Virus record (IMG/VR): IMGVR_UViG_3300019754_000002 | Coordinates: 1-38,744 of that record | DNA: 38,744 nt | Reading direction: 5' to 3' (one strand) | DNA from: a virus | Shown: positions 15,645-33,405 of the stretch, one piece after another | Layout of the letters: every line of letters starts with the position of its first letter | Position numbering within the stretch: position 1 is the stretch's first letter | The notes under the pieces: generated by a model | What the model was told of the DNA's origin: nothing | Seen by the model: the letters and a program-made list of their open reading frames with translations, nothing else | The model's database searches: none | Translations under genes and position numbers: made by a program

Positions 15645-15664
15645 TTCTTTGTGTGCTAGGCTGT

Positions 15665-15709
15665 TGCAGCGTTTTTAGCATAATGAGGGTGCGTAAAGCT
15701 TTATGTTAT
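15665..15709 (-). repeat. Truncated cassette-end site, copy 1 (half site)
   Basis: Minus strand: an ATATAAC box is followed by ATAAA and GCTTTACG, then CACCCTCATTATGCTAAAA. The last 19 bases recur, with A or G at one position, after 23585 and after 33302. There is no facing GTTA box; the rightward late genes begin beyond it. It looks like a cassette array broken at its end. Confidence 0.65.
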
Positions 15710-15718
15710 ATGAGCATA

Positions 15719-15979
15719 TTATTGCTTAACTCTATAAATTTTGGAGCAGTCATCACATATATAGGCATCACTTCTAATTGGGGTTATATATTTACATTCG
15801 CAATAAGACGACTCTATAACATTGCTCTTATCAACATTATTTTTTACTAAACTATCATGTTTATGTTTAGCATATTGTTCCATTAAATCAATCCATTTTG
15901 TCAGTGAATACGTTGTGTTTGAAGCTGTCCACAAATTGAAGTCAGCATCGTTATTTTTTATAAAATCTATTGCAGTCAT
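15719..15979 (-). CDS. Small zinc-ribbon protein (86 aa), last cassette of its array
   Basis: The C-terminus holds a likely zinc ribbon: CEC near residue 60 and CDDC near residue 77. The N-terminal half is helical. Its stop codon lies about 10 nt before the ATATAAC box of the half site, and its upstream edge is the 16003-16034 site, so it fits a one-gene cassette. Function unknown. Confidence 0.65.
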   Translation of the reverse strand: MTAIDFIKNNDADFNLWTASNTTYSLTKWIDLMEQYAKHKHDSLVKNNVDKSNVIESSYCECKYITPIRSDAYICDDCSKIYRVKQ

Positions 15980-16002
15980 TGTATTAATTTTAAATTCGTA
16001 AA

Positions 16003-16034
16003 AAAGAACGCTTGTAAGCGCATATTCGTTATTT
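16003..16034 (-). other. Miniature attC-like site (A3)
   Basis: Minus strand: AAATAAC (overlapping the TAA stop of the next gene), GAATA, TGCGCTTACAA, GC, GTTCTTT. The arms are reduced to CGCTT/AAGCG. It shares AACGA-ATGCGCTTACA with the mini site at 24984-25014. Confidence 0.5.
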
Positions 16035-16407
16035 ATAATTTTAAAATTTGTAAAGGTTTATTTGTCAACTCGAAGAGAAAACTTTGAATTTCATGTACGT
16101 ACTTAAATGTTTTTTCTGTTCTAATTTCGTTAAAATCAGAATGAATACTTCGAGTAAAAAAAGAAAGTTCGTTTTCAGAATACAAAACCATTGTGTTAAA
16201 GTTATGATAAAATTTAAATTCTTTACGCTCTTCTTTAAACCCAATTTTTAAAAGAACATCTTTATTTATCGTTATTGGATTTAATCTATCTTTTGTCTTA
16301 AATAAAATTATATTTTCAAAATCGTTTTCTGAAATTGTAATCAGATCCTTGTAGTTATTTCCGCAAACAAAATAAGAGCAATTTATTTTAATACCTTTTA
16401 GTTCCAT
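16033..16407 (-). CDS. Cassette protein, paralogue of the 28021-28362 protein (124 aa)
   Basis: It aligns with the 113-aa product of 28021-28362 over its whole length: both have DFENII(L/I)FKTKDR, a K...LIKxGF centre, and a C-terminus of the form HE(I/L)Q..(L/Y)FxLT. This pattern is familiar from many Bacteroidota phages and mobile elements, where its function is unknown. Its stop codon lies inside the AAC box of A3 and its start follows the GTTATTT box of A4. Confidence 0.75.
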   Translation of the reverse strand: MELKGIKINCSYFVCGNNYKDLITISENDFENIILFKTKDRLNPITINKDVLLKIGFKEERKEFKFYHNFNTMVLYSENELSFFTRSIHSDFNEIRTEKTFKYVHEIQSFLFELTNKPLQILKL

Positions 16408-16495: not shown

Positions 16496-16792
16496 TCAAT
16501 TCAGCGCGTAAATTTCAGCTTCTTCTTTCAATTCTTTAAATGCCAAACTCTCGAAAAATATTGTTCTTAATATTTCGCCAAACATTACATTCTTTATTTT
16601 TTCTTTACAAAAACTGGCATGTATATCTGTTTTTATTTCGATATCAAAAGAAAAATGATAATCTTTTGTTATTGTAATAATATTAGTAATCTTAATATCA
16701 TCAAATTTGCGTTTAATCTTTTCAACTGTAGAAAGAAAAGAACCATGTGATTTCATTTCTACATTTGCCTTATAATTTATTTCTTGATTCAT
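16496..16792 (-). CDS. Cassette protein of unknown function (98 aa)
   Basis: Soluble alpha/beta protein with alternating charged strands (KITNIITITKDYHFSFDIEIK). No known motif. It is bounded by the attC-like sites A5 (upstream) and A4 (downstream), with the stop codon 0 nt before the A4 AAC box region, making a clean single-gene cassette. Confidence 0.65.
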   Translation of the reverse strand: MNQEINYKANVEMKSHGSFLSTVEKIKRKFDDIKITNIITITKDYHFSFDIEIKTDIHASFCKEKIKNVMFGEILRTIFFESLAFKELKEEAEIYALN

Positions 16793-16819: not shown

Positions 16820-16910
16820 ATATAACATTGCACTTATAAAAATGCTATGTTAGTTATTACTATTAATTTACTTCTTAGTGTCGCACTTTTTAAGTGCAGT
16901 ACCGTTATAT
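16820..16910 (-). other. attC-like site (A5)
   Basis: Minus strand: ATATAAC, GGTAC, arm TGCACTTA; about 50 nt; arm TAAGTGCA, AT, GTTATAT. The arms are perfectly complementary over 8 nt. The TAA in ATATAAC is the stop codon of the 16905 gene. Its first 20 bases match the site at 32885-32977 on the other strand, and its centre shares 18 nt (TAATAACTAACATAGCAT) with the site at 26018-26108. Confidence 0.85.
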
Positions 16911-17153
16911 GCAACGGCTTAAAAAGTCTGGTTCTATTTCAACACTTCTTACTTCCTTACCGCATGCAGGACAATTGTTTACTCTTATTTTTTCATTTCC
17001 ACTAAGCATGTACGGCATACATAATTTTTCACCTTCTTCTGTCTGTATGCTAAACCATCCGAAATTCTGTAAAAGCTTCTCAAAATAGCCGCAGCATATA
17101 ACATTTTGTAAAGGCAATTTGCCGTTCTCTGTTGTTTTATTATCTATACTCAT
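16905..17153 (-). CDS. Small zinc-binding protein (82 aa)
   Basis: It contains CPACGKEV near residue 63, and two more cysteines near 19-20 (VICCGY) and one at the C-terminus (SRCI). This is typical of small phage proteins with a zinc knuckle. The stop codon is within the AAC box of A5. Upstream there is no facing GTTA box, so it is the first cassette of this array or has been fused to the early operon. Confidence 0.65.
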   Translation of the reverse strand: MSIDNKTTENGKLPLQNVICCGYFEKLLQNFGWFSIQTEEGEKLCMPYMLSGNEKIRVNNCPACGKEVRSVEIEPDFLSRCI

Positions 17154-17331: not shown

Positions 17332-17700
17332 TTAAATTTCGTAAGCTTTAATATTATACTCAAAGAAGCTTCGGGTATTTTCGTCAACTTCAATTTGATT
17401 ATCATAAAGCAAACTCATAAGCTCTTTGCCAGAAACGCCCACTTTTGAAGGCGAGATACTAACAAGTCTATTGAGTTGCAATGGCAGCAAATAAACCCCG
17501 ATATAATTGTCCGAATACTCAATTATAAACTCGTCAAAATCATAGAGCTTAAGCTTTCTTATTAACTCGGATTTTGGAAAGCATTCGTCGCAATAATCTT
17601 TTTCGCCATCTAGTGAAAACTCCTCATTTTCTTTAATATTACCGCAATCTTTACACTCGAAAGCAGTTTCATTTTCTAATTCGTCGCTATAGTTACTCAT
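17332..17700 (-). CDS. Zinc-ribbon protein of unknown function (122 aa)
   Basis: Near residues 15-40 a CxxC...CxxC ribbon is visible (CKDCG ... CDECF), followed by an alpha/beta domain. Its ATG overlaps the stop of the upstream 51-aa gene (ATGA), placing it in the leftward early operon. It could bind nucleic acid; no family is recognised. Confidence 0.65.
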   Translation of the reverse strand: MSNYSDELENETAFECKDCGNIKENEEFSLDGEKDYCDECFPKSELIRKLKLYDFDEFIIEYSDNYIGVYLLPLQLNRLVSISPSKVGVSGKELMSLLYDNQIEVDENTRSFFEYNIKAYEI

Positions 17701-17852
17701 TGCGCTTTAATTTTCTTAGTTAATATTCGTGTTTGACTCTTTAACATTTTAGAAATCTTAATTTCGACCGCCATGCGCTCTTCGGCCGTCTTTGCGTTTG
17801 CTCTCATTGCCTCAAATGTCTTATCTTGTCTTTTTTTCTGTTCTATTGTCAT
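17697..17852 (-). CDS. Small basic helical protein (51 aa)
   Basis: A 51-codon frame starting MTIEQKKRQDKTFEAMRANA, highly charged and helical. Its TGA overlaps the ATG of the next gene. Such small basic proteins are common in phage early operons; no function can be assigned. Confidence 0.6.
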   Translation of the reverse strand: MTIEQKKRQDKTFEAMRANAKTAEERMAVEIKISKMLKSQTRILTKKIKAQ

Positions 17853-17856
17853 GATT

Positions 17857-17928
17857 TCATTTCTTTAAATTCATTTTTCTTAATTCATTCAATTCTCTAA
17901 AAGTTGGATCTTGGTACAAAAGTTTCAT
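17857..17928 (-). CDS. Possible tiny peptide (23 aa)
   Basis: A 23-codon frame, MKLLYQDPTFRELNELRKMN then LKK, ends 5 nt before the start of the 51-aa gene. Spacing and composition fit the operon, but it is short enough to occur by chance. Confidence 0.3.
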   Translation of the reverse strand: MKLLYQDPTFRELNELRKMNLKK

Positions 17929-17982
17929 TTATGAAACAAATAAAACCATGTGTTGTAAAGCATGTTTTTGTAAGTTAGCTTT

Positions 17983-18495
17983 CTATGTGTGAAGTTTTCC
18001 ACCGCTCAACTCACATAAAAATTTTGAAACTATTTCCTGCTCTGGATTTCGCCATGCGTGATTTAGATAAACAATAGGCTCGTTATAATGATAGTGGTTA
18101 GCGTCGATATGCTCTTGACAAGCTTTTGATGTTAGGAACGTGTTTTTGTATTCGTATTCAATATTAACCCAAACTTTGCGCCAACCTTCATTAAGTTCAT
18201 CTTGCAAAAAACCTAAAATCTCGTCGGAATCCATTTCTTTAAATTGCTCTTGATTGTCATTATCTGACAGATATTGCTCCACATACTCGGCGATTTCTTC
18301 AACTGTTCGAAGTTCGTCCCCCTCGTCATTAACCCAAATCTCTTCGCCACACCCCTCATGCGCTGCGACCTCTTTTTTTGTTCTGATTTGAAACATGTGA
18401 GGCATTCGGGTACCTAGATTATCTTGCGAGGTCATTTCTTTTGATAATTCCATTAATGAATTATACATTTCGTCGGTTACTTCTATTGTTTTCAT
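17983..18495 (-). CDS. Acidic early protein of unknown function (170 aa)
   Basis: Soluble, strongly acidic (many E and D), with NEPIVYLNHAWRNPEQE near the C-terminus. No catalytic motif recognised; similar acidic proteins occur in phage early regions, sometimes as DNA mimics, which would be speculation here. It is driven by its own promoter inside the perfect 52-bp repeat and preceded by a terminator, so it is a separate transcription unit. Confidence 0.65.
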   Translation of the reverse strand: MKTIEVTDEMYNSLMELSKEMTSQDNLGTRMPHMFQIRTKKEVAAHEGCGEEIWVNDEGDELRTVEEIAEYVEQYLSDNDNQEQFKEMDSDEILGFLQDELNEGWRKVWVNIEYEYKNTFLTSKACQEHIDANHYHYNEPIVYLNHAWRNPEQEIVSKFLCELSGGKLHT

Positions 18496-18514
18496 ATTTT
18501 TATTGTTTTAAATT

Positions 18515-18566
18515 AACTTTCAACAAAGATACTCATTCTAAATTTAATAAAAAACATGTTTAAAAA
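18515..18566 (-). promoter_or_regulatory. Promoter module, copy 2 of the 52-bp repeat
   Basis: Identical to 5439-5490. The TATCTTTG box is at 18531-18524 on the minus strand; the upstream GTTTTTAAACATG element overlaps the T-run of the neighbouring terminator. Confidence 0.75.
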
Positions 18567-18603
18567 CACACAAAGCGCAAACAACTGAATGAATGCGCTT
18601 TGT
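18562..18603 (-). terminator. Intrinsic terminator after the YopX gene
   Basis: Minus strand: ACAAAGCGCA pairs perfectly with TGCGCTTTGT (10 bp, 14-nt loop), followed by GTGTTTTT. It ends the leftward transcript from 19061 just before the 52-bp promoter module. Confidence 0.85.
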
Positions 18604-18623
18604 GGGGTGTATAGATTGGTGTT

Positions 18624-19061
18624 TTATTTTAACAGTTCTTTATTTTCGTATACATTTCCGATCAATTCAAAAAATACGTTTGCTTTTTTAAGCATTTTTA
18701 AATATTGTTCAAAATTATACTTTTGATTATCGGATAAAGCGATAAAATAAAAAGAGAAGTTTTTAAAAACAACTTTATATTTTTTATTCACCTGATTCCG
18801 AATAATGTCACCCTCGTATATTTCTTTGTCATTTTTATCTTTCAATCCTGTAAATTGACCAACCGTTTCATGGTCTACTTCTATAACATAAGCTTTTTCT
18901 TTACCTTTTTCTTCATCAAAATATATTTGTTGTATTTGTTTCTGATTTTTGTCAGCATTATGGCTAAACCTTCTAGTTAAATAGCCACGAACAAACCCAT
19001 CTATAGCGTATCCTTTAAATTCTGGTATTGGTATGCCTCTAAATTTTATTTCTCTTTTCAT
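18624..19061 (-). CDS. YopX family protein (145 aa)
   Basis: The family pattern is clear: N-terminal REIKFRGI, central GQFTGLKDKNDKEIYEGDII, and C-terminal FELIGNVYEN. YopX proteins are common in phages of Bacteroidota and Firmicutes; their role is not known. Length is normal for the family. It is the last gene of its transcript, followed by a strong terminator. Confidence 0.9.
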   Translation of the reverse strand: MKREIKFRGIPIPEFKGYAIDGFVRGYLTRRFSHNADKNQKQIQQIYFDEEKGKEKAYVIEVDHETVGQFTGLKDKNDKEIYEGDIIRNQVNKKYKVVFKNFSFYFIALSDNQKYNFEQYLKMLKKANVFFELIGNVYENKELLK

Positions 19062-23534: not shown

Positions 23535-23552
23535 ATAGTTGTGGGGGTTTTA

Positions 23553-23590
23553 GTATAATGAGGGTGTGTAAGTTCCTACGTTATTTACAA
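23553..23590 (-). repeat. Half cassette-end site, copy 2
   Basis: Minus strand: AAATAAC (overlapping the TAA stop of the 23585 gene), GTAGG, AACTTACA, then CACCCTCATTATACTAAAA. Same element as at 15665-15709 and 33297-33342. No facing GTTA box. Confidence 0.65.
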
Positions 23591-23770
23591 CTCTTCAAAC
23601 GTAACTTTTAAGCCAATGTGCTTGAGTGTTTCGTTTAAAAACTTTACATTGCGCTCAATCCTTTGTTTTAATCCAGCTTTGTTTTTAGCTGAATATCCTA
23701 AAAATTTAGATAAAGCAACCCAAGTTCTGAACTCAGATTGCTTTATTTTGTTTGTTATTTCTTCCATCAT
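23585..23770 (-). CDS. Small protein with helix-turn-helix character (61 aa)
   Basis: Sequence such as FRTWVALSKFLGYSAKNKAG LKQRIERN suggests two or three helices like a compact DNA-binding domain; this is a pattern judgement only. Its start overlaps the stop of the 23767 gene (ATGATGG), so the two are translationally coupled, as often seen with regulator or toxin-antitoxin pairs. Confidence 0.55.
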   Translation of the reverse strand: MMEEITNKIKQSEFRTWVALSKFLGYSAKNKAGLKQRIERNVKFLNETLKHIGLKVTFEEL

Positions 23771-24501
23771 ATCATATCGTAAGTTAGTCCGTTTGTGAAA
23801 ATTCTATTCCAAATTAGTTCCTCATCTTCATTAGAATTATTTTTTTCTTCCTTGAAATTAGAATAAAACTTATTACAAAGTTCGAACTCTGCATTTCTTT
23901 CTGTCTCCGTTTTGAACCAAAAAGTTCCAACGTAAAAATTATCTTTTGAAGTTTTATTAAATCCGCAACCTCTTTCAAATTCTATTCCCAAGCCTAAATT
24001 AGAATAATCTACAAATTCAGAATCTTCTTCAATAACTTCCTCTTTAATAACTTTGAAATCGTTATTAACAAAATCAGTAACTGCATAATAATAGCTTTCA
24101 TAATTACCTAGCTTGTAATTATTAATAAAATCTTCTACTCGTTCCAATTTGCCAAAAGGTATTTCAATAACCTTATATTCGTCTCTGTAATCAGTTTCCT
24201 GTACAGCTACCTTTCTAGTCGAATATGCTTTAAATTCCTTTTCTTTAGAAAAAATAACAGCATATACGTTAGTACTGTCATTAGGTCTATATTGAATAGA
24301 TGTACTACCACTTTCCATCTTTATTTGAACTTTTGAGTCCCAACCTTCCGAAGAATGGTAACGGTACAAATTAGAGTATTTGACTTTATCAATAGCAAAG
24401 TCAAAACTAACGGCGATTTGATTACCATTTTCAGAATCAAATATAGTTTGTTCTTTTTTGTTTTCTTGACTATTGTTATGTATATCAGTTAAATTTTTCA
24501 T
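23767..24501 (-). CDS. Protein of unknown function (244 aa)
   Basis: A soluble acidic protein with beta-rich N-terminal half (AVSFDFAIDKVKYSNLYRYH) and helical C-terminus. No recognisable motif. It has its own Bacteroidota-type promoter at 24540-24569 and is coupled to the 61-aa protein. It lies at the downstream end of the cassette array, after site A8. Confidence 0.6.
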   Translation of the reverse strand: MKNLTDIHNNSQENKKEQTIFDSENGNQIAVSFDFAIDKVKYSNLYRYHSSEGWDSKVQIKMESGSTSIQYRPNDSTNVYAVIFSKEKEFKAYSTRKVAVQETDYRDEYKVIEIPFGKLERVEDFINNYKLGNYESYYYAVTDFVNNDFKVIKEEVIEEDSEFVDYSNLGLGIEFERGCGFNKTSKDNFYVGTFWFKTETERNAEFELCNKFYSNFKEEKNNSNEDEELIWNRIFTNGLTYDMI

Positions 24502-24609: not shown

Positions 24610-24697
24610 AAATAACATTGTAATTAATATAACGCAATAGCGCCTTATCACTTAGTTTGCTGCAATAAGGCGCTATATAATTACATTTTCGTTATAT
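24610..24697 (-). other. attC-like site (A8)
   Basis: Minus strand: ATATAAC, GAAAA, arm TGTAATTA, inner arm ATAGCGCCTTAT, loop, inner arm ATAAGGCGCTAT, 10 unpaired nt, arm TAATTACA, AT, GTTATTT. Both arm pairs are perfect. It lies 6 nt after the stop of the 24703 gene. Confidence 0.85.
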
Positions 24698-24702
24698 GGC
24701 AA

Positions 24703-24960
24703 TTAAAGTGTTTTTAAATATTCGTCAACATGCACATCTTCAATCGAGTCCCAGTTATCGTGAGTTTCGTAGTGTTTTTTAAGAAAACCCTTTAACAGTT
24801 CGCTTCGCCAAATAACATTGCTCTTAACAATATTATTTTTAACCAAATCAGAACGGATATAACTTATAGGACTTTCATTTTGATAATCTAAACAGTGTAT
24901 CCCATTAGTTCCTGCTTTTTCTTCAAAATATATAATTTCTGGTAATTCTTCTTTTTTCAT
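24703..24960 (-). CDS. Cassette protein of unknown function (85 aa)
   Basis: Contains PISYIRSDLV, a short motif I associate with small phage and mobile-element proteins, and an acidic C-terminus. Enclosed by sites A9 and A8 as a single-gene cassette of about 374 bp. Confidence 0.65.
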   Translation of the reverse strand: MKKEELPEIIYFEEKAGTNGIHCLDYQNESPISYIRSDLVKNNIVKSNVIWRSELLKGFLKKHYETHDNWDSIEDVHVDEYLKTL

Positions 24961-24983
24961 TAAAATTTGTTTTAAGTTAGTAA

Positions 24984-25014
24984 AAATAACATTGTAAGCG
25001 CATTTTCGTTATAA
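24984..25014 (-). other. Miniature attC-like site (A9)
   Basis: Minus strand: TTATAAC (containing the stop of the 25009 gene), GAAAA, TGCGCTTACA, AT, GTTATTT. Boxes and spacers are kept but the hairpin arms are almost gone (31 bp in total). Confidence 0.55.
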
Positions 25015-25362
25015 ACAATTTTGAAACTCACTAACTACTCTACTATGCAAGTTCATAATTTCATCTACCTCAATAGTGTTGTTATTCTCTTTCTTCTTTC
25101 CAATTGAAAGCATATTTCTACTTAAAAACACATCAAACGATATGCCCCGCTCGTCGTTTCTAAGCGAAGAAATCGCAACTATATCAGATATTTTAAAAAT
25201 TCCTAGCTCTGAAACGTGAAATTCTTCTTTTTTAATCAAATCAGACTTAAACAAATTCTCTACATAAATATCTGAAACCAATATTTCAGCTTTATTTGAA
25301 GTAGTTAATTGACCAGCTTTATGTGCTTCTTTTACTAAATGCTTTATTGTATCTATATTCAT
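25009..25362 (-). CDS. Cassette protein of unknown function (117 aa)
   Basis: Alpha/beta protein with ISDIVAISSLRNDERGISFD in the centre. No known family. Its stop codon is inside the A9 AAC box and its start lies 12 nt after the GTTATAA box of A10. Confidence 0.65.
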   Translation of the reverse strand: MNIDTIKHLVKEAHKAGQLTTSNKAEILVSDIYVENLFKSDLIKKEEFHVSELGIFKISDIVAISSLRNDERGISFDVFLSRNMLSIGKKKENNNTIEVDEIMNLHSRVVSEFQNCL

Positions 25363-25373
25363 AATATTTGAGT

Positions 25374-25505
25374 TTATAACATTTTGTTTAAGAAAATTTG
25401 CTATAACAAAACGTTAAGTTATTAATAATTAATCTATTATTTTGTAGTTTAGAAAAGAATACAGTTTGTTAGCTCGCAAACTTTCTAAACAAATTTCCGT
25501 TATAA
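25374..25505 (-). other. attC-like site (A10)
   Basis: Minus strand: TTATAAC (stop codon inside), GGAAA, arm TTTGTTTAGAAA, 70-nt centre, arm TTTCTTAAACAAA, AT, GTTATAA. The outer 8 bp are perfect; one arm has a single extra A, an extra-helical base as in classical attC sites. Length 132 bp. Confidence 0.85.
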
Positions 25506-26003
25506 ATAATTTTTCAACACTATAGTTTTATGTAAAGGATTCATTGAAAAGAATGATTCTTTCTCTGAATTGAACTTTATAGCATTTGGATTATTTATAT
25601 CAGCACCGCCATCAAATCGCCTTTCATGTCTCATGTTCTTAATTAATTTAAGTTTTTCAAAATCATTAGTAACTAAAATAAAATTCCATTCTTTTTTTAA
25701 GTCATCTAACTTTATATAATTTGGAGCTAAAATATCTAAAATAATATTTTTATCTTTCGACTTTATATTATAAAATATTTCAAAAAAATCAATTTCAATC
25801 ATATCTGTCCAATTAGCACAAATAAAATTAAAATTGTTATCCGTAGAAATTTCAGAAAGTAGTTTTATTTTATCTTTACCTAGTAAGTTTATTTTTTTTA
25901 TTTTGGTTGTAGTTGCTTCTTTTATTTCTGATGTTGCATAATGCTTTCTTATGAACAAAAAAACAAAAAATATACATATTGTTCCAATACTTAATATACT
26001 CAT
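25500..26003 (-). CDS. Membrane-anchored cassette protein (167 aa)
   Basis: An N-terminal transmembrane helix (SIGTICIFFVFLFI) precedes a soluble alpha/beta domain of about 135 residues facing the cytoplasm or periplasm. No motif recognised. Single-gene cassette between A11 and A10. Membrane proteins of unknown function are frequent integron cargo. Confidence 0.65.
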   Translation of the reverse strand: MSILSIGTICIFFVFLFIRKHYATSEIKEATTTKIKKINLLGKDKIKLLSEISTDNNFNFICANWTDMIEIDFFEIFYNIKSKDKNIILDILAPNYIKLDDLKKEWNFILVTNDFEKLKLIKNMRHERRFDGGADINNPNAIKFNSEKESFFSMNPLHKTIVLKNYL

Positions 26004-26017
26004 AATATTCCTTAAAT

Positions 26018-26108
26018 TTATAACATAACTTTTAAAACATGCTATGTTAGTTATTAATTTTAAATCGACTTCATTAAGCGCACGATTTTAAACGCTGTAC
26101 CGTTAGCA
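26018..26108 (-). other. attC-like site (A11)
   Basis: Minus strand: TGCTAAC, GGTAC, arm AGCGTTTAAAA, about 50-nt centre, arm TTTTAAAAGTT, AT, GTTATAA. The arms have mismatches near the boxes. The centre shares TAATAACTAACATAGCAT with A5, 9 kb away. Confidence 0.75.
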
Positions 26109-26112
26109 ACAA

Positions 26113-26880
26113 CTAAAACAGCGTTGCGTATTGGTTAATAATTTGTTTTCTCGGAATAAATAAACATTCAATTTTATTTTGTGTTTTCGTGCTTAAATTT
26201 GATTTTATTTTTTTCTGCCATATTTTTGTAAATCTACTTTCAGGCATCCAATATTCAGAAATAAATACTTTGTGCCCTTCCTCACTTTTCAACTCAGCCC
26301 AATCGTAAAATGTTGGATAATCGAAAATATTAGTTCTATATTTTGTAGTGTCGTTATATGGTATATCACAATAAATTATTGATTTTTCAGGTATAATTAA
26401 TTGAGAATAATCACAACAATAAAATTCAATATCTTTAATTAATTGTATTTGTGTTTCAATATTTCGGATACTTTCATCAATATAGTTTCTATCGTACTGT
26501 ATCTTTTTATTTTTCCCATCTATATAATCGGAAGCATAACCATTGTAAAACTTACCATTAAAAGAAGCCATAAATCCAATCCACCCGATTAAAAAATCAG
26601 AATAAAATACATTTGAGCCGTTTTTAAAGTCGCTTTTTGCATTGTCATACATTTGCTTACTTATCTCTTTTGGGTAGATTAAACCTTGCTGTAAACCTTG
26701 CCACATAGCAATTAAATACTTGTTATTATCAGCTGCAATTCGTACACCTTTTATTTTGTCAATCATATTTGCACCTCCCACCATAGGTTCTACATAAGCC
26801 TGCTCTAATCCTGTGCGGTTTAAGTCGATTATTTCTTTAATTTCTTTGGAAATCTTATCTTTACTTCCCATGTATTTCAT
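26113..26880 (-). CDS. dam: Dam-like (D12 class) DNA adenine-N6 methyltransferase (255 aa)
   Basis: The order is N-terminal KYMGSKDKI, SAM-binding motif YVEPMVGGANM at residues 29-39, and catalytic DIPY at 172-175 (a normal variant of DPPY in phage Dam enzymes), followed by the target-recognition-type C-terminus. Length is typical. It would transfer methyl to adenine, likely protecting phage DNA from restriction. It lies inside a cassette, between A12 and A11, with its TAG 4 nt before the A11 AAC box: an anti-restriction gene carried as cassette cargo. Confidence 0.9.
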   Translation of the reverse strand: MKYMGSKDKISKEIKEIIDLNRTGLEQAYVEPMVGGANMIDKIKGVRIAADNNKYLIAMWQGLQQGLIYPKEISKQMYDNAKSDFKNGSNVFYSDFLIGWIGFMASFNGKFYNGYASDYIDGKNKKIQYDRNYIDESIRNIETQIQLIKDIEFYCCDYSQLIIPEKSIIYCDIPYNDTTKYRTNIFDYPTFYDWAELKSEEGHKVFISEYWMPESRFTKIWQKKIKSNLSTKTQNKIECLFIPRKQIINQYATLF

Positions 26881-26914
26881 AAAACGATACTTTGATAATG
26901 AATAAAAAAAGAGT

Positions 26915-26981
26915 TGCTAACATGGTGTTTAGGCTGTTTGGCTTTTTTTAAGCCAAACAGCCTAAACACCTGTCGTTAAAC
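26915..26981 (-). other. attC-like site with perfect 21-bp hairpin (A12)
   Basis: Minus strand: GTTTAAC (stop codon inside), GACA, 21-bp arm starting GGTGTTTAGG, 5-nt loop, perfectly complementary arm ending CCTAAACACC, AT, GTTAGCA. The most compact full site (67 bp) and the only one with a flawless stem. Confidence 0.85.
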
Positions 26982-27131
26982 ACAATTTAAAATAGCAGTC
27001 CGCAAAATATCTGTTAAATCCGAACCGTATTTTTCTTTTAGTAAATTGTATTTGTCTATCTTAATTCTGATAGTTACGTTTTTCGAGGGGTCAGGCTTGC
27101 GCCCTTGCCCCTTTTTGTTTTTCTTTTTCAT
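26976..27131 (-). CDS. Small ribbon-helix-helix-like protein (51 aa)
   Basis: The frame opens with MKKKNKKGQGRKPDPSKNVT, a basic arm, followed by VTIRIKIDKY (a strand as in RHH/CopG proteins) and a helix LLKEKYGSDLTDILRTAIL. This suits a small DNA-binding dimer. It starts 3 nt after the stop of the 27135 gene (TAATAAATG), and its own stop is inside the A12 AAC box, so the cassette holds two coupled genes. The pair could be a toxin-antitoxin or a regulator with partner; not proven. Confidence 0.65.
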   Translation of the reverse strand: MKKKNKKGQGRKPDPSKNVTIRIKIDKYNLLKEKYGSDLTDILRTAILNCV

Positions 27132-27134
27132 TTA

Positions 27135-27389
27135 TTAAATAATTTTACCATCAACAATAAAAATATCATTTCCTTGATTTAATCTTTCAGCTTCGTATTT
27201 TAGAGCTGTTTTCATTATTGTATTATATAAATTTGGAGAGTATCCTGCATTTTCATTTTTTCTTGCAATAATTCTTTCAATTATATTTAATTCTTTTTCA
27301 GTTCCAAAAGCCATAACAATTATTCTAGCATTTTCAATGTGATTATTATTATTTTCGTTAGTTGTATAAATTTCTGTTAAAGTTTGCAT
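27135..27389 (-). CDS. First gene of the two-gene cassette (84 aa)
   Basis: A helical soluble protein with IIVMAFGTEKELNIIERIIA and a C-terminal FIVDGKII. No family recognised. It has its own promoter within the cassette (27434-27464), unusual for integron cargo but usual for toxin-antitoxin cassettes. It is coupled to the RHH-like gene downstream. Confidence 0.6.
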   Translation of the reverse strand: MQTLTEIYTTNENNNNHIENARIIVMAFGTEKELNIIERIIARKNENAGYSPNLYNTIMKTALKYEAERLNQGNDIFIVDGKII

Positions 27390-27433
27390 TGTCTTAAATT
27401 TTAATAGTTAGTATATCTCTTATTTTGTTGATA

Positions 27434-27464
27434 CAAAGATAAGCTATTTATTTAATATATGCAA
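27434..27464 (-). promoter_or_regulatory. Promoter inside the two-gene cassette
   Basis: Minus strand TTG (27464-27462), 20 nt, TATCTTTG (27441-27434), followed by GTATCA. It resembles the promoter at 24540-24569 over both boxes and flanks. Confidence 0.75.
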
Positions 27465-27525
27465 GCATTAATTAATAAAAGATTGAATTATTTTTAATTT
27501 ATTTTATAAGTATGTGTATTACAGT

Positions 27526-27613
27526 GTTTAACATGCAATTTGTAAAAACGCAAAAAGCGCCAAACATTTAATAAAAAACATTAAGGCGCTTTTCAAATTA
27601 CGTACCGTTATAA
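27526..27613 (-). other. attC-like site (A13)
   Basis: Minus strand: TTATAAC (stop codon inside), GGTAC, arm GTAATTTG, inner arm AAAAGCGCC, 23-nt loop, inner arm GGCGCTTTT, 10 nt, arm CAAATTGC, AT, GTTAAAC. Outer arms match at 7 of 8, inner arms at 9 of 9. Confidence 0.85.
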
Positions 27614-27922
27614 ACAACTACGAAACACTGGTAACAAGCTTTCAATTTCTGCTGAAAATATTTTTTTTTCATCAAGTTTTTTCTTTCTTGCTTCCATTTT
27701 TTCAACCACATTACAATACCATTTTTTAGTATGATATTCAACTATGCTTATGCCTAACATATTTATTGAGTAACCAATTAACTTAAATTCATCAATTATT
27801 TTTATTGCTTCCTCTTCTTTTATATCAATCTTTATGTTATCCGTTTCAAATTGAAAAAAAATTTTATCACCAACAACATTTTTGTTTATTTTATATTCGT
27901 CTTTCCATATTTCAATTTCCAT
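27608..27922 (-). CDS. Cassette protein of unknown function (104 aa)
   Basis: Alpha/beta protein with KIDIKEEEAIKIIDEFKLIG and a lysine-rich segment. No family recognised. Single-gene cassette between A14 and A13; stop codon in the AAC box, start 9 nt after the GTTATAA box. Confidence 0.65.
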   Translation of the reverse strand: MEIEIWKDEYKINKNVVGDKIFFQFETDNIKIDIKEEEAIKIIDEFKLIGYSINMLGISIVEYHTKKWYCNVVEKMEARKKKLDEKKIFSAEIESLLPVFRSCL

Positions 27923-27931
27923 AATAAAAGT

Positions 27932-28022
27932 TTATAACAGTCGCTTGGACAAAATGCCAATTGACTGTTGTGGTTAATATTTACTTTCGAGCGTGGCACT
28001 TTACCAAGCTATAACGTTACTT
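27932..28022 (-). other. attC-like site (A14)
   Basis: Minus strand: AAGTAAC, GTTAT, arm AGCTTGG, centre, arm CCAAGCGA, CT, GTTATAA. GCTTGG/CCAAGC pair with one extra base near the box. GGTAAAGTGCC and GGCATTTTGTCC extend the imperfect stem. Confidence 0.75.
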
Positions 28023-28362
28023 ACAATTTAAAAATCAACTCATCTTTGGTAAGTGCAAAGTATAGGTTTTGTAATTCGTGCAAATAATAAAACTCATTAC
28101 CAACTGAATATTGACCACTCAAAAGGACAAAGCCGTCGTAAGTCGTTTTTAATGTTAATCCATTCATTTGATAAAAGTAACCATTATTATTAAACCCACA
28201 TTTAATTAATATTTCTTTCGTTAATTTAATAGGCGTAATTCTATCTTTAGTTTTAAAAATAATTATATTTTCAAAATCTTTTTCAGATAAAGTCATCATA
28301 TCTGAATCTTTACATCCAGAAATATAATAAGTACAACCTATATTTATTTCTCTTATTTTCAT
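28021..28362 (-). CDS. Cassette protein, paralogue of the 16033-16407 protein (113 aa)
   Basis: It shares with the 124-aa protein DFENIIIFKTKDR, PIKLTKEILIKCGF and the C-terminal LHELQNLYFALT pattern. This family of unknown function is frequent in Bacteroidota phages. It is the first gene of the leftward array after the operator-controlled promoter, enclosed by A15 and A14. Confidence 0.75.
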   Translation of the reverse strand: MKIREINIGCTYYISGCKDSDMMTLSEKDFENIIIFKTKDRITPIKLTKEILIKCGFNNNGYFYQMNGLTLKTTYDGFVLLSGQYSVGNEFYYLHELQNLYFALTKDELIFKL

Positions 28363-28406
28363 AATATTTTTTTTATAATTGAATCAACATTAGTTTGTCT
28401 TACAGT

Positions 28407-28536
28407 AAGTAACATAGCGTTTGAAGCTAGTTTGCTGTTATTGCTACGTACTGTTATCTATTTCCTTTTTAGTTGTTTAAACTTCCCTTGGATTTGTTAT
28501 GGTCGCAAACCATCTCAATACGCTGTACCGTTACAA
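28407..28536 (-). other. attC-like site at the array entrance (A15)
   Basis: Minus strand: TTGTAAC, GGTAC, arm AGCGTATTGA, about 90-nt centre, arm TTCAAACGCT, AT, GTTACTT. The arms pair with one extra-helical A. No gene precedes it: the AAC box begins 3 nt after the TAGTTTTG promoter box. The centre holds a smaller ATGGT/ACCAT hairpin. Confidence 0.75.
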
Positions 28537-28539
28537 ATG

Positions 28540-32490: not shown

Positions 32491-32563
32491 ATTTAACGGA
32501 CACGTATTTGTGTCTGGAAATTTTTATTTTCAAAAATTTATAGCATCAAATACGATGTTATAA
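32491..32563 (+). other. attC-like site at the rightward array entrance (P1)
   Basis: ATTTAAC, GGACA, arm CGTATTTG, about 35-nt centre, arm CAAATACG, AT, GTTATAA. The 8-bp arms are perfect. No gene precedes it; the promoter box does. Confidence 0.85.
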
Positions 32564-32596
32564 ACTCTTAATTTTTACTAAATCAAATATATAATC

Positions 32597-32890
32597 ATGG
32601 GTTTGCAAAAAATATCAGAACAAACAGGAATAAGAGAAGAAATATTACGCTTCGCTCTAAAAATGGAAGAAAAACTAAAAGAAAACGACCACAAAGGGGG
32701 GTGGAATAATTCATCTATTAGTTATTTATTATCTGGAATTGAGAGAGAAACAGAAGAATTGAGCTATGCAGTTGGACAAGAAGGTCAGGTATACACTCGA
32801 AAAGATAGATCTAATATTATTTCAGAATGTGCCGATGTTGCTAATTTTGCTATGATGTTGGCTGATAATTCGGTTCAAGATTGTTTATAA
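32597..32890 (+). CDS. MazG-like nucleotide pyrophosphohydrolase-type protein (97 aa)
   Basis: Helical protein with the MazG-type acidic pattern: EEKLKENDHKGGW near residues 28-41, IERETEEL near 53-60, and ECADVANFAMM near 80-90. These all-alpha NTP pyrophosphohydrolases hydrolyse nucleoside triphosphates; phage versions may alter host nucleotide or alarmone pools. The stop codon TAA is in the TTATAAC box of P2 and the gene follows the GTTA box of P1, so it is a textbook single-gene cassette of 414 bp. Confidence 0.75.
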   Translation: MGLQKISEQTGIREEILRFALKMEEKLKENDHKGGWNNSSISYLLSGIERETEELSYAVGQEGQVYTRKDRSNIISECADVANFAMMLADNSVQDCL

Positions 32891-32977
32891 CGGTACTGCA
32901 CCTTTGAAGCGTGCAACGGGATGAATTGAATTGAAAAATAAACTTTGCATTGCATGATTTCAAGTGCAATGTTATTT
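32885..32977 (+). other. attC-like site (P2)
   Basis: TTATAAC (stop codon inside), GGTAC, arm TGCACCTTTGAA, about 50-nt centre, arm TTTCAAGTGCA, AT, GTTATTT. The arms pair with one extra-helical C. It shares TATAACGGTACTGCAC and AAGTGCAATGTTAT with A5 on the opposite strand 16 kb away. Confidence 0.85.
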
Positions 32978-33020
32978 ACTCCAAAACAAACCACTGTTGA
33001 ACTAATAAATAAGAAAAAAA

Positions 33021-33302
33021 ATGAAAATTGATAAAGAAAATTTTAGAGATAACTTGTTCATTTTAACTAGCCCATGTTTTTACATATACGCTTTGTATTT
33101 GATTTTGAATAAATTATTTCATATATTATTTGAATATTTTGCATTTAAGGATGTTTATTTTTATCTTTTCAGAATGAACGAATATAAATGGGAAAAGGCT
33201 AATTTTAATCATGCTCGATACTTATTTAAAAAAAGCAAATCTGTTTTTAGGAAAATAATGATTTTAAAAATATACAAAAAGCAAAGAAAAAATTGTAAAT
33301 AA
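33021..33302 (+). CDS. Membrane-type cassette protein (93 aa)
   Basis: Hydrophobic aromatic segment at about residues 15-50 (FYIYALYLILNKLFHILFEY), then a basic C-terminus. Starts 44 nt after the P2 GTTA box and ends in the AAATAAC box of a half site. Function unknown. Confidence 0.6.
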   Translation: MKIDKENFRDNLFILTSPCFYIYALYLILNKLFHILFEYFAFKDVYFYLFRMNEYKWEKANFNHARYLFKKSKSVFRKIMILKIYKKQRKNCK

Positions 33303-33342
33303 CGAAAATCTTTACACACCCTCATTATACTAAAAACCTTGT
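33297..33342 (+). repeat. Half cassette-end site, copy 3
   Basis: AAATAAC (stop codon inside), GAAAA, TCTTTACA, then CACCCTCATTATACTAAAA. Same element as at 23553-23590 and 15665-15709, here on the plus strand. No facing GTTA box is seen before the next gene. Confidence 0.65.
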
Positions 33343-33405
33343 AATTAGGTGAAGCCCTTTAACTTAAGATGTTTCAACAATTACAAATAAAAAAAACAAA
33401 ACAGT

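Follow-up and report, generated by a model that had tools for sequence, protein, structure and literature searches.

Clusters of attC sites lacking integron integrases (CALINs) have been described in virulent phages, including Polaribacter phage P12002L with its methyltransferase cassettes (Qi et al. 2023, PMC9892861). One attC site of P12002L was recombined by IntI1, and the sites of this phage lie in divergent directions (PMC9892861). The phage CALINs of that study hold two or more attC sites per phage, and complete integrons are known from temperate phages, namely Vibrio anguillarum prophages and Shewanella M16-3 (PMC9892861). As for bacterial hosts, the complete Bacteroidetes integrons reported with IntegronFinder 2.0 come from Salinibacter ruber only (PMC9024848). 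Here we analyze the IMG/VR virus record IMGVR_UViG_3300019754_000002, a 38.7-kb stretch of DNA (38,744 nt) hereafter called the window, which contains three integron-type cassette arrays named A1, A2 and A3.

The window resembles P12002L in carrying phage-borne attC arrays without an integrase and with methyltransferase cargo, and both P12002L and Tenacibaculum phage JQ have the same type of site, with unit boxes matching at 8-9 of 9 positions. It differs from the CALINs of Qi et al. 2023 by its three separate arrays with common ends, by genes that are consistently reversed relative to attC, and by cargo swapped between near-identical phages with junctions located at base level. The V. anguillarum and Shewanella M16-3 phage integrons contain cassette arrays as here together with an integron integrase (also detected by tblastn), which the window record lacks. 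Gene modules of the Xer/dif type are also flanked by recombination sites and moved by a recombinase acting in trans; their sites are about 28 bp long, with two 11-bp arms and a 6-bp centre. The window arrays likewise consist of modules between recombination sites, presumably served in trans, but here 46-124 nt with a stem separate the two boxes, and the sites match an attC model and do not have the dif form.

Site structure and comparison with bacterial integrons

Three integron-like arrays were found in the window: A1 (28532-23535) and A2 (17222-15660) on the minus strand, and A3 (32495-33348) on the plus strand. Their sites are hairpins with outer boxes, one ending in AAC and the other starting with GTT, and inner paired arms; those at 25010 and 16030 are degenerate. 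The initial annotation had described the interval 24610-28536 as a leftward CALIN-like array carrying a Dam methyltransferase. Its seven units and eight sites on the minus strand were recovered at the same positions from the sequence, the open reading frames (ORFs) and the motif scan, as were the perfect arms (8 of 8 at 24693 and 25501, 21 of 21 at 26977) and the nearly perfect ones at 27609 (7 of 8), the dinucleotide AT ahead of GTT, with a single exception at 28018 (CT), and the stop codons contained in the AAC box at 25009, 25500, 26976 and 27608. The interval proved too short, since A1 extends to 23535 and two further arrays exist, each with a common end element. At least two clustered attC sites without intI nearby make these arrays CALINs, and the model matches described below, a PF02086 domain and the absence of intI from the record agree with a CALIN-like array that has a DNA methyltransferase in its cargo.

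An integron integrase scoring above the NCBIfam cut-off was present in 105 of 395 sampled Bacteroidota genomes, and the DNA adjoining several of these IntI genes contains arrays of sites laid out as AACG, 5-6 nt, arm, centre, arm, 1-3 nt and GTT. From 39 IntI-linked Bacteroidota attC sites we built a covariance model with 23 pairs, called R1, from which the window sequence was excluded. In its alignment 86% of the cells are paired, and 125 cells are changed on both sides compared with 46 in shuffles. The whole window was searched with R1 on both strands with filters off, a check of the kind that the initial annotation had proposed, and the eight best matches (35.2 to 14.0 bits) were all sites of the arrays, five in A1 and three elsewhere, while the ninth (12.4 bits) was not such a site. 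These eight are 16906-16824 (35.2 bits, E 1.2e-6), 26104-26022 (26.8 bits, E 1.3e-4), 27609-27530 (21.6 bits, E 0.0024), 24693-24614 (19.9 bits, E 0.006), 32889-32973 (18.7 bits), 32495-32559 (16.5 bits), 26977-26919 (14.7 bits) and 28532-28411 (14.0 bits, match 28403-28539), where scores below about 18 bits are not significant on their own.

The spacing of 5 and 2 nt inside the hairpins had been taken as a sign of a possibly divergent class. Arrays adjoining true IntI genes in Bacteroidota normally have this very layout and, with the window sites matching R1, it is the usual Bacteroidota form. Host and phage arrays thus share the AACG-(5-6)-arm...arm-(1-3)-GTT layout, the signature of the unit boxes and the crossover box described below; they differ in that the host arrays adjoin intI and have their genes opposite the AACG strand, whereas the phage arrays are without intI and have their genes on the AACG strand.

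A scan combining a position weight matrix (PWM) with arm pairing gave scores of 36-46 for ten intact sites against 29.9 for the best of 20 dinucleotide shuffles, its scoring having been tuned on the very sites that were scored. For this reason our argument is based on the blind model R1 and on the cassette junctions. The single strong R1 match across nine phage genomes, with 38 bits, was in Cellulophaga phage phi19:3. There, the attC-like site and a one-gene cassette (L102:16028-16400) lie just upstream of the tyrosine recombinase gene gp036, whose product matches only XerD, and weakly (27.6 bits).

Complementary unit ends

A circularised integron cassette re-forms attC from its own two ends, and the boxes at both ends of a unit should therefore match. 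For 16 of 17 units of the window and its relatives, the 9-nt box preceding a gene and the one following it were perfectly complementary, whereas the two boxes of one hairpin were so in 1 of 17 (mean 6.1 of 9 positions); a permutation of the boxes gave p <= 1e-5. Sites 25010, 16030 and one in the related contig L015 (position 900) have no right box and were left out of this test. The same test applied to the host arrays gave perfect complementarity in 54 of 74 units versus 0 of 87 sites. Complementary unit ends are the signature of cassettes, and the phage arrays carry it.

Cassette exchange between related phages

The cargo of the arrays was compared with that of related phages, which are represented by short metagenome contigs. 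Contig L015 is 99.8% identical to the window over 3180 nt from beside A3, yet the two array ends, which are the same in both, enclose different cassettes and a larger number of them in L015. Cassettes likewise differ from those of the window in L169 (98.6% identical) at the A1 end and in L170 (98.2-98.6%) at the A2 end. Each of the five junctions examined lies within the AAC(G) box, at TAA|C(G). There the opposite strand reads CGTTA, the canonical crossover of integrons, with the break at G|TT, so that unit boundaries coincide with this position in related phages as the initial annotation had anticipated. At the far end of A3, identity with L015 ends at AATTTAACGG, and at three other ends it begins at TAAC. 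As the box is itself a conserved sequence, each junction can be placed to within a few nucleotides; the stretch in common there measures no more than about 4-9 nt and is always the same box. Cassettes of one type also occur in two arrays: for the two-gene cassette of A1 (27389-26976), L170 contains a relative (93% identity over 329 nt) that adjoins the A2 end and is followed by a different hairpin.

Since the differences between these near-identical phages are whole cassettes with cuts at the integron crossover, the arrays seem to be active in phage populations, while phage CALINs had been seen earlier as passengers. It appears that the phages exchange genes by means of a bacterial gene-capture system without encoding its enzyme themselves. 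In a literature search of limited journal coverage we found neither cassette exchange between near-identical phages nor reversed polarity reported, and the direct evidence of exchange is new relative to the known phage CALINs. Such arrays could give lytic phages a modular change of early or accessory genes, for instance a methyltransferase, without homologous recombination, and could let cassettes pass between phages and bacteria.

A common element of three window copies, versus 0.00 expected, is present at the ends of A1, A2 and A3 only (core TTACACACCCTCATTATACTAAAA). It stays constant while the neighbouring cassette changes, and thus behaves as attI would; the element may be an attI site.

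Gene polarity

At 33 of 36 scored sites of the host arrays, AACG is read on one strand and the cassette gene lies on the other, whereas at the phage sites matched by R1 (including L065, L040, L071 and phi19:3) the gene was on the AACG strand in all 11 scorable cases (Fisher p 2e-8, with two sites coming from L040 and related phages not being independent). The crossover sits in the AAC box, which means that the genes are reversed relative to attC. The initial annotation had labelled this box R'' and read the attC sites leftward; both R1 and the junctions make them point the other way. This polarity, common to other flavophages and opposite to that of bacterial arrays, together with a likely host order that seems to lack integron integrase, raises the directly testable question of which enzyme acts.

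Proposed mechanism and acting recombinase

We propose, with a probability of roughly 80%, that this is an integrase-less phage with three integron-type arrays whose cargo is swapped by site-specific recombination, the recombinase being supplied from outside. Each unit would be one cassette, usually with a single small gene, and its complementary end boxes would let a circle re-form a perfect attC. Excision and insertion of cassettes would take place at 5'-G|TTA-3', as read on the strand that does not carry the genes; this would both exchange cargo between related phages and shift cassettes between the arrays of one phage, and the constant end beside the changing cargo would act like attI. The recombinase would most simply be an IntI encoded by the host or by a co-resident element, and it could act on single-stranded hairpins during phage replication. 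The phage would presumably benefit from the cargo.

Several observations weigh against this proposal. R1 missed the sites at 28018, 25501 and 25010, and two sites are degenerate. The usual orientation of genes along attC, which is not strictly defining, was found at 0 of 11 phage sites compared with 33 of 36 host sites. The relatives are a few metagenome fragments, maybe from one source or site, and assembly chimeras among them cannot be fully excluded. No match to Phage_integrase (PF00589) or to a tyrosine recombinase was obtained in the phage record, which may be incomplete. IntI above the cut-off was present in 0 of 397 Flavobacteriaceae and 0 of 296 Flavobacteriales genomes (two partly overlapping samples), the likely host group. 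Finally, the end element showed no likeness to the intI-flanking DNA of ten host loci, and a search for it in the 397 Flavobacteriaceae genomes gave six 3-mismatch matches versus one for a reversed control, which we took as noise; because of these two results its attI role is put forward as a candidate one.

The phage is one of Bacteroidota-type bacteria. Its terminase is nearest, at 53-54% identity, to those of Cellulophaga phage phi10:1 and Flavobacterium phage 11b, and Flavobacteriales is the likeliest guess for the host order. This bears on the alternative that survives best, although we consider it doubtful, namely that a recombinase distinct from IntI moves the same cassettes, for instance an IntI-like tyrosine recombinase of Flavobacteriales without the integron insert. 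In its favour, IntI is absent from the genomes above, yet attC-like sites occur in some Flavobacteriaceae chromosomes and in phages with Flavobacteriaceae hosts, and insert-less candidates in Flavobacteriales match the integron model on either side of the insert (98 and 100 bits; 198 bits overall). Against it, no attC match was obtained within regions of 15-20 kb around four such genes, the insert (I2 helix) is reported to be necessary for single-strand recombination (PMC7790495), and a Flavobacteriales host is only a guess. A wider form of this idea is that Flavobacteriales phages keep their own attI-like landing sites and a circulating pool of reversed-gene cassettes moved by a recombinase other than a classical integron integrase, as the host order seems to be without one; we suggest it tentatively.

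The tyrosine recombinases L111:1246-2313 and L108:1204-2457 lack the insert, align with the integron integrase model on either side of it and have a terminal SPLD. In the Flavobacteriaceae chromosomes L177 (4133-6640), L172 and L174, attC-like sites (AACGGTCTCGTGTATGAGCAGTAGCGG...) show normal gene polarity, and the family sample holds no integrase. A dense attC array in genome G498 (L175, G498:C66), on a small contig of about 60% GC filed under Flavobacteriaceae, is probably contamination and was not used.

Mosaicism, attC direction and terminators

Ordinary phage mosaicism, with homologous or illegitimate recombination at short intergenic repeats, could produce differences in gene content. 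The phage encodes a YqaJ-type exonuclease and a single-stranded DNA-binding protein (SSB) as well as a DnaB helicase, and mosaicism is also seen outside the arrays, between the related phage L183 and the 17.7-19.0 kb region of the window. We consider it improbable as the source of the cargo swaps: the shared sequence at the junctions is so short and always the same box, and mosaicism leaves both the complementary unit ends and the matches to a host-trained attC model unexplained. In L183 the DNA around a YopX gene (window 17700-18990) is missing and about 2 kb of other sequence stands in its place.

Even less probable is an attC running along the genes and cut at the G|TT of the TGTT box, in which each gene would travel with its downstream hairpin. 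Such an arrangement would suit the stop codons, which adjoin the AAC box as in textbook cassettes. However, the five junctions contradict it. At the A3 far end the common DNA stops at AACGG and the hairpin differs, at the array ends there is neither a hairpin nor a following GTT box, and the hairpin behind the two-gene cassette is not the same in L170 as in the window; moreover, R1 reads the sites in the polarity that puts host genes on the opposite strand.

That the hairpins are transcription terminators or RNA-stability elements rather than recombination sites is the least probable reading, because, although one follows nearly every gene and that at 26977-26919 folds strongly (z -8.7), most sites fold weakly as single strands (z -0.7 to -2.9, half of them above -2.1), the box complementarity spans the gene and not the hairpin, and the cargo junctions lie inside the box. 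The hairpins could in addition serve as terminators.

Three other scans were set aside. A structure-only scan for boxes and arms, which ignored the sequence, was underpowered, its best non-site and shuffled scores overlapping those of true sites. An exact-pattern scan of all genomes for TAACGGTACnGC..GCnATGTTAT returned four matches, of which the three inspected (Bacteroidota and other) were coding or low-scoring and were deemed chance, and a pattern scan of IMG/VR mostly returned one unrelated coding stretch.

Units of the arrays and their cargo

A1 opens at its far end with the site 28532-28411, also found by the PWM scan, which has no upstream gene. Along the minus strand follow cassettes encoding a phrog_10066 family protein (28021-28362; PHROG E 3e-16) and a 104-amino-acid protein (27608-27922), the two-gene cassette (26976-27389; ORFs 27389-27135 and 27131-26976), the D12-class adenine DNA methyltransferase (26113-26880; PF02086 E 4.5e-12), and proteins of 167 (25500-26003) and 117 amino acids (25009-25362), all of them with flanking boxes complementary at 9 of 9 positions. 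The sites 28018-27936 and 25501-25378 among these were identified by the PWM scan and by their boxes, and 26977-26919 is the one with the perfect 21-bp stem. Behind the 117-amino-acid gene lies an armless, degenerate or truncated attC (24983-25010), recognized by its sequence, then an ORF of 85 amino acids (24703-24960) and the site 24693-24614. The last A1 cassette (23585-24501; ORFs 24501-23767 and 23770-23585) has boxes before 24501 and at 23582 that are complementary at 9 of 9 positions, and it is followed by the end element, a candidate attI (23535-23582), at which the junction in L169 lies.

A3, on the plus strand, starts with the site 32495-32559, where the far-end junction with L015 at AACGG is located. 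It contains genes for proteins of 97 (32597-32890) and 93 amino acids (33021-33302), both with 9 of 9 complementary boxes, separated by the site 32889-32973. The latter gene is the last one before the candidate attI (33301-33348), which has the end-element core and the other junction with L015.

In A2, on the minus strand, the far-end site 17222-17100 scored 34.5 in the PWM scan and only 9.7 bits with R1, and its boxes are complementary at 9 of 9 positions with those of the next unit. This unit encodes a zinc-ribbon-like protein (16905-17153; weak Pfam match) and is followed by the site 16906-16824, a gene for a 98-amino-acid protein (16496-16792; boxes 9 of 9) and a short site at 16491-16446, which has 9 of 9 boxes on both sides and only 7.4 bits with R1. 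Next come a phrog_10066 family gene (16033-16407; PHROG match, boxes 9 of 9) and, recognized by sequence, the degenerate attC at 16030 with the last A2 cassette gene (15979-15719; together 15719-16030). The array ends in the candidate attI (15660-15707), which has the end-element core and the junction in L170.

Apart from the D12 methyltransferase, which may plausibly help to evade host defence, the cargo is without known function; this includes the family of the two phrog_10066 proteins (28021-28362 in A1 and 16033-16407 in A2), which are 41% identical. Members of phrog_10066 also occur in Cellulophaga, Olleya, Tenacibaculum and Pseudanabaena phages. At the far end of A2, the annotated ATG of ORF 17153-16905 falls within the centre of the attC site 17222-17100.

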